Positions 31,732 to 35,250 of a stretch of 64,000 bases of DNA are shown here, piece by piece. The notes under the pieces are model-generated. The model did not search any database. It saw nothing but the letters and a program-made list of their open reading frames with translations, and was not told the origin of the DNA. Position numbers and translations under genes: made by a program. The DNA comes from Sphingomonas sp. 28-66-16 (lineage in GTDB: Bacteria > Pseudomonadota > Alphaproteobacteria > Sphingomonadales > Sphingomonadaceae): contig NCGF01000002.1 in the NCBI GenBank assembly GCA_002281485.1, positions 186,001 to 250,000 on the forward strand, in the 5' to 3' direction. How positions within the stretch are numbered: the first letter of the stretch is position 1; every line of letters starts with the position of its first letter.

Positions 31732-32740
31732 ATGCGCGCCGAAGCGCAAGCTCATGTCGACCAGATCAACGAGGCGCTGGCGCTGCTCCGCCGTTTCCTC
31801 GATTGGGACCGTGCGCTCCGCCGGCTCGACGAACTCAACGCGCGGGTCGAGGACCAGGCGCTGTGGAACGACCCCAAGGCCGCCCAGGAAGTGATGCGCG
31901 AACGCCGCCGGCTCGACGAAGCGATCACCGCGACGCGCGCAATCGAAAGCGAGCTTTCCGATACCGTCGAGCTGATGGAGATGGCCGAGGCCGAGGGCGA
32001 TACCGCGATGGTCGATGAGGGCGTGGCGGGGCTGGCCAAGCTGGCCGCGCGCGCCAATGAGGACAAGATAAAGGCGCTGCTCGCGGGTGAGGCCGATGCC
32101 AACGACACCTATATCGAGGTCAACGCCGGTGCCGGCGGCACCGAGAGCCAGGACTGGGCAGGCATGCTCAGCCGGATGTACACAAGATGGGCCGAACGGC
32201 GGGGCATGAAGGTCGAACTGATCGACCAGCATTCGGGCGAACAGGCCGGGATCAAGTCGGCGACGTTGCTGCTGAAGGGCGAGAACGCCTACGGCTATGC
32301 CAAGACCGAGAGCGGCGTCCATCGGCTGGTGCGGATCAGCCCCTATGATTCGGCGGCGCGGCGGCACACCAGCTTCGCCAGCGTCTGGGTCTATCCGGTG
32401 ATCGACGACAACATCGAGGTCGATTACAATGAAAGCGATCTGCGCATCGACACCTATCGCGCCTCGGGCGCGGGCGGGCAGCACATCAACACCACCGATT
32501 CGGCGGTGCGCATCACGCATATCCCGACCGGCATCGTCGTCCAGTGCCAGAACCAGCGCAGCCAGCCACCAGATCCGGTCCTATGTGCTGCAGCCCTACC
32601 AGATGGTGAAGGACCTGCGGACCGGGGTCGTTTCGACCGCACCCGGCGACGTGCTCGACGGCGCGCTCGATCCGTTCATGGCGGCGGCGCTGTCGCAGCG
32701 CGTGACCGGCGAGACGGTCGAAGTCGAGGATGTCGACTAG
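31732..32740 (+). pseudogene. prfB: Peptide chain release factor 2, disrupted by internal deletion and frameshift
   Basis: Residues 1-278 (31732-32565) read as RF2: the N-terminal helical domain, a codon-recognition region with [13 protein letters not shown] and the catalytic loop [16 protein letters not shown]. After CQNQRSQ the frame changes. The rest of RF2 ([20 protein letters not shown] to the stop at 32740) continues in the +1 frame from 32567. By comparison with E. coli RF2, 40 codons between RSQ and HQIRSY are missing less one base, about 119 nt. Continued reading in the first frame gives a nonsense tail to 32772. No UGA is present at the usual programmed-frameshift site near codon 25, so that mechanism is not used here. 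As written this gene cannot make normal RF2. Confidence 0.88.
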
Positions 32741-32741
32741 C

Positions 32742-33455
32742 ATGGGCCGGCCGATCTGCCTTGCCGTGCTGATCCTGCTGGCGGGCTGTGACAGCCTGTC
32801 GACGGTGGCGCGCGGCAAGGATGACCAGGCAGGACCGTTCCCCGCCGCCGACCGCCCGGTCGCGCGGATCGTGTCGTCGCGCTGGTCGACCGAGGAAGCG
32901 CGCGACCGCAAGAACGAGGCGGGCGAGGTGATGGACAAGGCCGGCATCGCGCCCGGCATGACCGTCGCCGATATCGGCGCCGGCGAGGGCTATTACACGA
33001 TTCGCCTCGCCGAGCGCGTCGGCAAGGACGGGCGCGTGCTCGCCGAGGATATCGTCCCGCAGGTCCGCGACGCGCTGGCGGACCGCGTCGCGCGCGAGCG
33101 GCTGCAAAGCGTCAGCGTCCGGCTCGGCGAGCCCGCCGACCCGAAACTGCCCGAGCATAGTTTCGACCGCGTGCTGATGGTGCATATGTATCACGAGATC
33201 GCGCAGCCCTATGAATTCCTGTGGCGGATGCGGCCCTCGCTCAAGCCCGACGGGCTGGTCGTCGTCGTCGATGCCGATCGCCCGACGCAGAACCACGGCA
33301 CCCCGCCCGCGCTGCTGAAATGCGAATTCGCCGCCGTCGGCTATCAACTGGTCGCGACCGACGACATGCCTTCGGCGGGGGGCTATCTGGCGACGTTCCG
33401 GGCCAAGGGGCCACGTCCCGACCCGAGCACCATCAAGCCCTGCCGGATCAACTGA
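32742..33455 (+). CDS. Exported (lipoprotein) class I SAM methyltransferase-like protein
   Basis: 237 residues from ATG 32742, directly after the prfB remnant. A signal peptide ends in lipobox LLAGC, so Cys is the likely lipidated first residue. The mature part has class I methyltransferase motifs: motif [17 protein letters not shown], an acidic end of strand 2 (LAEDIV), and [11 protein letters not shown] before a Rossmann-like [16 protein letters not shown] is not known in the periplasm, so either the fold is used for something else or the signal is not used. No partner is obvious; the location after prfB may only reflect order. Confidence 0.85.
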
Positions 33456-33460
33456 TCGCC

Positions 33461-34255
33461 ATGCAGGCTTATCACGATCTCATGCAGCGCATCCTCGACG
33501 AAGGGGTCGAGACCGCCGATCGCACGGGCGTCGGCACGCTGTCGGTGTTCGGGCACCAGATGCGGTTCCGGTTGGACGACGGCTTTCCCGTCGTCACCAC
33601 CAAGAAGTTGCACCTGCGATCGATCATCATCGAGCTGCTGTGGTTCCTGCGCGGCGACACCAATGTCCGCTGGCTGCAGGAGCGCAAGGTGGGCATCTGG
33701 GACGAATGGGCGCGCGACGACGGCGATCTCGGGCCGATCTATGGCAAGCAGTGGCGCGACTGGGCGGCGAGCGACGGCCGCCATATCGACCAGATCGCCG
33801 AGCTGATCGGCCAGATCAAGACCAACCCCGCCTCGCGTCGCCAGATCGTGTCGGCATGGAACCCCGGTGATCTCCACGCGATGGCGCTCGCGCCGTGCCA
33901 CTGCCTGTTCCAGACCCATGTCGCCAATGGCAGGCTCTCGCTCCAGCTCTATCAGCGTTCGGCAGACGTGTTCCTGGGGGTGCCGTTCAACATCGCGAGC
34001 TACGCGCTGCTCACCCATATGCTCGCGCAGCAATGCGGGCTCGAAGCGGGCGACTTCATCTGGACCGGGGGCGATTGCCACCTCTATCTCAATCACCTCG
34101 ATCAGGCCCGTCTCCAGCTGACGCGCACCCCGCATCCGCTGCCGCGGCTCGAAATCCTGCGCAAGGCCGACGGCATCGATGATTATGCCTATGAGGATTT
34201 CCGGCTCCACGATTACGTCGCCGATGCGCATATCGCGGCGCCCGTCGCGGTCTGA
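33461..34255 (+). CDS. thyA: Thymidylate synthase
   Basis: 264 residues, the E. coli length, with the catalytic Cys at residue 146 (LAPCHCLFQ). Other family motifs are [16 protein letters not shown], the Arg pair [36 protein letters not shown] and DCHLYLNH. It converts dUMP and methylenetetrahydrofolate to dTMP and dihydrofolate, which dihydrofolate reductase recycles. A DHFR gene follows 360 bp later, but it is compositionally foreign. Confidence 0.97.
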
Positions 34256-34329
34256 CGCCGACATTCATCGCGCGTTCACGGCCGACGATTACATACGTAA
34301 TCGTAATCGAGGGATGTGGGAGCAAGACG

Positions 34330-34482
34330 ATGGGAAAGGCGTATTTCGCGCTGCTGGCGGCGGCATTGCTGATCGGCACCGCCGGCCAGCGCCAAAAGCC
34401 CAAGCCCGCGCCGGCCGACGCGCGACACACCATCCTGAACGCCGATCTCGGCACGGTACATTTCAGCCTGTCGATCGGCTGA
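34330..34482 (+). CDS. Small putative exported protein (50 aa)
   Basis: Between thyA and the DHFR gene, ATG 34330 with GGGAG eight bases upstream opens a 50-residue frame. It begins with a signal-like stretch (MGKAYFALLAAALLIGTAG), then a Lys/Pro-rich linker and ILNADLGTVHFSLSIG. The end resembles the first strand of a cyclophilin-type isomerase, so it may be the truncated start of such a gene. Length and lack of relatives keep confidence low. Confidence 0.4.
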   Translation: MGKAYFALLAAALLIGTAGQRQKPKPAPADARHTILNADLGTVHFSLSIG

Positions 34483-34617
34483 TGCGCGGGCGCTTGGCAG
34501 CGGCGGCCAGCACAATTTTGCACATCCAATCCACAGCTTCGTTAACCGTCTTTTTTTGAACCAAGGATTCCCTCGGCGCGTTCTGTGTGTCAGGATTGAG
34601 ATAGAGGACGGGGCATC

Positions 34618-35250
34618 ATGTTGCGTAGTTTAACATCCATTTTGGCCGTCAATGAAGACGGAGCGATAGGCGCCGGGAACACGCTGCCGTGGCGGGTTCG
34701 TACTGATCTGCGCTTCTTCCGCGAGCATACGCTGCGAAATGTCGTGATCATGGGGAGGAAAACATACGATTCGCTAGGTGGCGGTCTCCCTGACCGAAGC
34801 AATATCGTTGTAACCCATGGCTTTGGGATGTTTCCAACGACACCCTCCTGCCGAGCAGCGGGAAGTATCGTCGAAGCGCTATTAATGGCGGATGATATTA
34901 AGACTAAAAAACAGGAAGTTCTCATTGTCGGCGGCGCAAGTATGTACGAGCAATTTGCGCCTTATGTAGATCGGTATTTGATCACGGAGATTCAAAAACC
35001 CGTTCCCAACGCAGACACATTTTTTGATCGTGCTATTATCGGAAACACAAGGGATTGGGACATCGCAGTTGTCGCCCAGGGGCGAGCCGATGGACTTCAC
35101 GACGAATGCGATTTCACCATCTACGAATTTAAGGTCAAGGACGCGGATAGACCCATGCGCCGCAGGGAAGGTGTTTTGGAGGATCTGAAGCGTCGCCGTC
35201 GCGGTCAAACCTTGCACGATGAATTTCCCCGAATGCGGGCAGCCGGTTAA
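34618..35250 (+). CDS. folA: Dihydrofolate reductase, divergent, low-G+C
   Basis: 210 residues. Type I DHFR motifs are clear: AVNEDGAIGAGNTLPWRVRTDL (first strand, loop and Asp of the DL pair), VVIMGRKTYDSLGG, LPDRSNIVVTH and LIVGGASMYEQFAPYVDRYLITEI. It reduces dihydrofolate with NADPH. A basic C-terminal tail of about 40 residues (KVKDADRPMRRR...) exceeds the usual 160-170-residue length. Base composition and codon use are strikingly unlike flanking genes, roughly half G+C by eye with many A/T third positions, which suggests transfer. GAGG lies upstream. Trimethoprim sensitivity cannot be predicted. Confidence 0.88.
   Translation: MLRSLTSILAVNEDGAIGAGNTLPWRVRTDLRFFREHTLRNVVIMGRKTYDSLGGGLPDRSNIVVTHGFGMFPTTPSCRAAGSIVEALLMADDIKTKKQEVLIVGGASMYEQFAPYVDRYLITEIQKPVPNADTFFDRAIIGNTRDWDIAVVAQGRADGLHDECDFTIYEFKVKDADRPMRRREGVLEDLKRRRRGQTLHDEFPRMRAAG

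Follow-up and report, generated by a model that had tools for sequence, protein, structure and literature searches.

Can a bacterium that ends most of its genes with TGA carry a broken gene for release factor 2 (RF2)? The question is raised by prfB of Sphingomonas sp. 28-66-16, which spans positions 31732-32740 (+ strand) of the window, the 64-kb stretch of DNA analysed here (bases 186001-250000 of contig C19, 304,669 nt), and is interrupted in it. The 5′ part (31732..32565, + strand) comprises codons 1-278 of RF2, with the PCRF domain and the GGQ loop of domain 3, up to the residues RSQ, and its 278-amino-acid translation contains zero stops. The 3′ part (32567..32740, + strand) lies in a different frame and translates as HQIRSY...VEDVD followed by a stop, which corresponds to the last 57 codons of RF2. 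The first-pass annotation had described RF2 as normal up to RSQ and resuming in another frame from 32567, and the translations of both pieces agree with that description. Read straight across the junction, the first frame forms an ORF of 346 amino acids (31732-32772), whose out-of-frame tail (32566..32772, + strand) is unrelated to RF2. The 5′ part was 96% identical in amino acid sequence to the intact RF2 of the relative L004 and aligned to residues 11-280 of the E. coli RF2 chain 1gqe, so that translation in the first frame would yield a protein that lacks everything beyond E. coli residue 280. Against the NCBIfam profile TIGR00020, the 5′ piece matched positions 2-270 of 353 with 376.6 bits (cut-off 370) and the 3′ piece matched positions 311-352 in the other frame with 54 bits; the whole-profile match of a functional RF2 was not obtained.

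At least 571 relatives of prfB were confirmed, and the best 80 of these were kept for reading at residue level. The segment of 40 residues between RSQ and H[QT]IRS was recognised by pattern in 79 of these best 80; the last one (L075) reads HQFRS, which falls outside the text pattern, and has the 40 residues as well. The 40 codons that had been reported missing between RSQ and HQIRSY are therefore present in all 80 relatives read residue by residue, none of which shares the loss or the interruption of the reading frame. At the junction (32565..32567, + strand) a single base separates the two pieces, compared with 120 nt in the relatives, which leaves 119 nt absent relative to the best 80 of 571. 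A gap of 119 columns also appeared at this place in a DNA alignment with seven relatives, and the single deletion of about 119 nt that had been proposed fits the deposited sequence. Chance does not account for such a break. Relative to L004 as the intact gene, about 2 nt (GC) are common to both deletion ends by eye. No hairpin was indicated at the deletion ends, as the L004 region, folded as DNA, did not surpass shuffled sequences (z −1.0). E. coli prfB uses an in-frame UGA for programmed frameshifting. Near the start of the window gene (31732-31830) and in the 80 relatives L004-L083 no in-frame UGA was seen, and the frame is continuous there.

Substitution rates were compared on the two sides of the break. 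Against L004, dN/dS was 0.052 in the 5′ part (278 codons, dS 0.53) and 0.019 in the 3′ part (57 codons, dS 0.41); only one residue of the last 57 codons differs from L004. Against seven further relatives, dN/dS ranged from 0.08 to 0.13 before the break and from 0.05 to 0.16 after it. Judged from the ratios against L004, purifying selection acts strongly before as well as after the break. Neither relaxed selection nor further lesions, as expected of a pseudogene that arose by real mutation, were found in either piece. Since prfB is undecayed, the hole is either very young or absent from the organism; the lack of decay is also compatible with a very young pseudogene or deletion.

One way for a real and fixed deletion to be tolerated is a second, intact prfB in a part of the genome that was out of view, whether unassembled, unbinned or lying on short contigs that read as N. 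The first-pass annotation had suggested a genome search for another copy, and the visible genome yielded none when queried with PF00472, PF03462, the intact L004 RF2 and the lost 40 residues. Besides the broken prfB, these searches of the visible genome matched only RF1 (contig C30) and a short RF-1-domain protein (contig C5), and the lost 40 residues alone gave a single weak match, to RF1 (E 0.06). The draft assembly (3.14 Mb, 51 contigs, 86.4% complete) does leave room in which a copy could be concealed: in a sample of 20 stretches, the four from contigs shorter than 3 kb (L135, L137, L141 and L153, on contigs C3, C7, C15 and C49) read wholly as N and may escape searches. On the other side, the broken prfB and its neighbours stand in the same order as in genome G142, and a long-redundant copy should show the relaxed selection that the window prfB does not show. 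We regard a hidden second copy as very improbable.

Another possibility is that RF2 has truly been lost and that UGA is served by an RF1 of widened specificity, by rescue factors or by the 5′ fragment of prfB. Were this so, the rule that UGA-using bacteria need RF2 would be broken. A passage of PMC5373646 describes RF2 as essential in E. coli K-12. With a simple gene model, TGA was the stop of 173 of 241 scored genes on contig C19 and of 31 of 42 in the window (8 further genes on the contig and 4 in the window were without a scored stop), which bears out the earlier statement that most genes of the window end in TGA. TGA thus remains the commonest stop, and UGA must be read in the organism. 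The genome does hold candidates for a substitute. A tmRNA is present, the RF-1-domain protein on C5 is a 159-aa open frame which we take to be ArfB-like, and the 5′ piece of prfB retains the GGQ loop. RF1 was aligned with its counterparts from eight relatives (nine proteins including that of this genome, G142 being left out), and it stands apart from them at 10 columns that are invariant among the others, one of which falls in a conserved NFPQGR stretch. However, the motifs of RF1 that we take to be PAT and GGQ are ordinary in this nine-protein alignment and lie outside all 10 deviating columns, and an RF1 with widened specificity was not supported. The 5′ fragment, moreover, would end where the alignment to E. 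coli RF2 ends, and the purifying selection persisting on both pieces argues against a loss. Among RF1 motifs, TGA usage and prfB decay we found no sign of alternative UGA termination. A true loss of RF2 is extremely unlikely, and we attach hardly any credence to a free-living Sphingomonas-type bacterium without full-length RF2, in which UGA is the main stop and release is carried out by RF1, a rescue factor or a two-piece RF2.

The soundness of the assembly was assessed by a scan for frame breaks over contig C19 plus 16 and 20 readable stretches, which together make 1,015,798 readable bases, or 32% of the assembly. The scan returned 15 flags, or 1.5 per 100 kb (1.3 on C19 alone). The controls, each scored with its own model, gave 11 flags, nine in genome G138 (2.8 per 100 kb) and two in G142 contig C15 (4.1 per 100 kb). 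Ten of the 15 flags were inspected, as were five of the nine in G138 (at four places) and none of the two in G142. Three of the 15 correspond to prfB and to two junctions in an RND-pump gene on contig C33, and these two genes are the clear breaks from the scan. Five flags were ordinary by eye (C19 194390, C19 265311, L134 19308 and two in one L151 repeat). Two less clear flags fell at C33 113770 and at L147 2664, on the border of phage terminase and portal genes, and the remaining ones at C19 228714, C45 220276, C33 98507, L134 532 and L144 12143. By eye, L147:1865-3464 (contig C29) carries terminase- and portal-like genes, and the terminase frame continues into the portal gene for about 300 nt; a small change of frame may lie close to the end of the terminase. 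A generally error-ridden assembly was rejected on the count of 15 flags in 1,015,798 readable bases. The scan is blind to in-frame holes. In a tblastn check that took in 29 of the 254 reference ORFs, or about 29 kb of C19, prfB was the sole frame change, and four other proteins showed in-frame length differences of 8-26 residues.

Lesions like that of prfB, as an assembly artefact would predict, were found in the same assembly. The RND-pump gene (L195:12026-15103, − strand, contig C33 about 32026-35103) has two holes and is otherwise intact in its pieces. Its orthologues came from a search of 61 genomes, of which five full-length ones were measured and a partial sixth (G042) was left out. At the first hole there is 1 nt compared with 117 nt in the five full-length orthologues measured, so that 116 nt are missing; at the second, 280 codons further on, there are 8 nt compared with 36 nt in three orthologues, so that 28 nt are missing. 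Both RND pieces gave a dN/dS of about 0.2 against L204, as under purifying selection. As the cell can probably do without this pump, both deletions may be real. Only one run of N interrupts the stretches that can otherwise be read. It is 5 N long, lies in a CzcA-like efflux gene (L111:9371-9375, contig C19:299371-299375) and leaves room for 2 codons compared with 14 expected from TIGR00914 or 15 from Pfam ACR_tran; it represents about 41 nt. Several clean-flanked holes, from about 28 to 119 nt in size, are thus present in the draft, and at one of them the gap mark has the wrong length.

An artefact would also predict more frame breaks than in the controls. This was not observed, and the fact that the flag rate is no higher than theirs speaks against an assembly error. 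G138 has a listed completeness of 100%, and frame-broken genes seem to be present at two of its four viewed places; isolated breaks therefore occur in complete genomes too. One is an MFS-like transporter gene (L118:16022-17247, G138 contig C12, − strand), with 1 nt missing compared with five of five orthologues, a loss unlike the holes of the present draft; the other, by eye, is a nucleotidyltransferase-like gene in L120 near 13290 (G138 contig C12, − strand, 113290). The comparison with the controls is in keeping with a real deletion that some of the sampled cells carry, or that belongs to a very young lineage or one that is dying out, and that was taken as the consensus while most cells keep an intact gene. 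The flush junction with about 2 nt shared, as left by illegitimate recombination, fits such an event, and an undecayed prfB would be expected if the deletion were very young. Yet the similar holes in the same assembly point to a common technical cause, and the essentiality stated for RF2 in that passage of PMC5373646 weighs against cells living with the deletion. We consider a non-fixed deletion unlikely.

The state of prfB in other drafts of the genus bears on the same choice. In a TIGR00020 search of 295 genus genomes, the best match of 288 was no weaker than 2.3e-146, whereas it was weak or missing in the other seven: the present genome, G093, G221, G231, G255, G264 and G279. Completeness is below 90% in all seven; 28 of the 295 genomes are in that range, and none of the remaining 267 is affected (Fisher p 3e-8). 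Searched with RF2, G093, G264 and G279 gave solely matches of 36-38% identity, which are RF1-like, and G231 gave a 47-residue end. In G255 (5 contigs, 80% complete), prfB (C1:2018158-2019283, L154) has a frame change at codons 87-90. In G221 (L155, contig C121, about 940-1250), it is in two pieces with an N run near the GGQ codons, and an 18-nt stretch is repeated on either side of the N run. Damage to prfB accompanies poor drafts, and its causes are mixed, comprising an absent gene, an N gap, a frame break and a fragment.

Assembly graphs branch at conserved DNA that is common to several species. Along prfB, 25-mers common to relatives peak in the 30-nt blocks at 32370, 32430-32549 and 32640-32699, and the blocks 32430-32549 and 32640-32699 flank the hole, which lends weak support to an artefact. 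A wrong join caused by a word shared with prfA was rejected, since the longest exact matches to the RF1 locus, of 14 nt ahead of the junction and of about 16-17 nt at 32680, are too short for such an argument. The 2 nt or so shared at the join are atypical of a simple k-mer overlap error and fit a real illegitimate deletion too. If the assembly is at fault, two neighbouring stretches would have been joined flush over a short unresolved gap, in a draft presumably made from short reads and probably from a metagenome. The join may have been made in a scaffolding or gap-closing step, or by chimeric reads near conserved DNA.

Taken together, we put the probability at roughly 0.86 that the 119-nt hole is a local assembly error and that prfB is ordinary and intact in the organism. 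An assembly error is favoured because the gene shows no decay and UGA must be read, and because similar holes occur in the same draft and prfB defects are tied to incomplete assemblies. Most likely, then, the break is not a real feature of the organism. The first-pass annotation had left the choice between a second prfB, a wrong assembly and another way of UGA termination; the second of these is best supported, while neither a further prfB in the visible genome nor, in RF1 motifs, TGA usage or prfB decay, a sign of the last came to light. Even where frameshifts are few, the conserved genes of a draft can conceal holes of about 30-120 nt, and whenever an essential gene is broken in an incomplete draft the reads should be checked first.

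In its flanking sequence, gene order and pattern of selection, the window gene resembles bacterial RF2 (prfB, TIGR00020), from which it differs by the loss of 40 codons and of the frame. Spurious pseudogenes arise from assembly errors, according to a passage of PMC11017572. The case described there resembles ours in that a conserved gene is broken in a draft while its flanks are under selection; the lesions in that passage are frameshifts and internal stops, whereas here there is a 119-nt hole. Core translation genes also go missing from metagenome-assembled genomes, as a passage of PMC9723686 reports, and in both cases a central-dogma gene is damaged in an incomplete draft. The cause given in that passage is largely binning, whereas the hole described here lies inside a gene on a 305-kb contig, in what is probably a metagenome bin.
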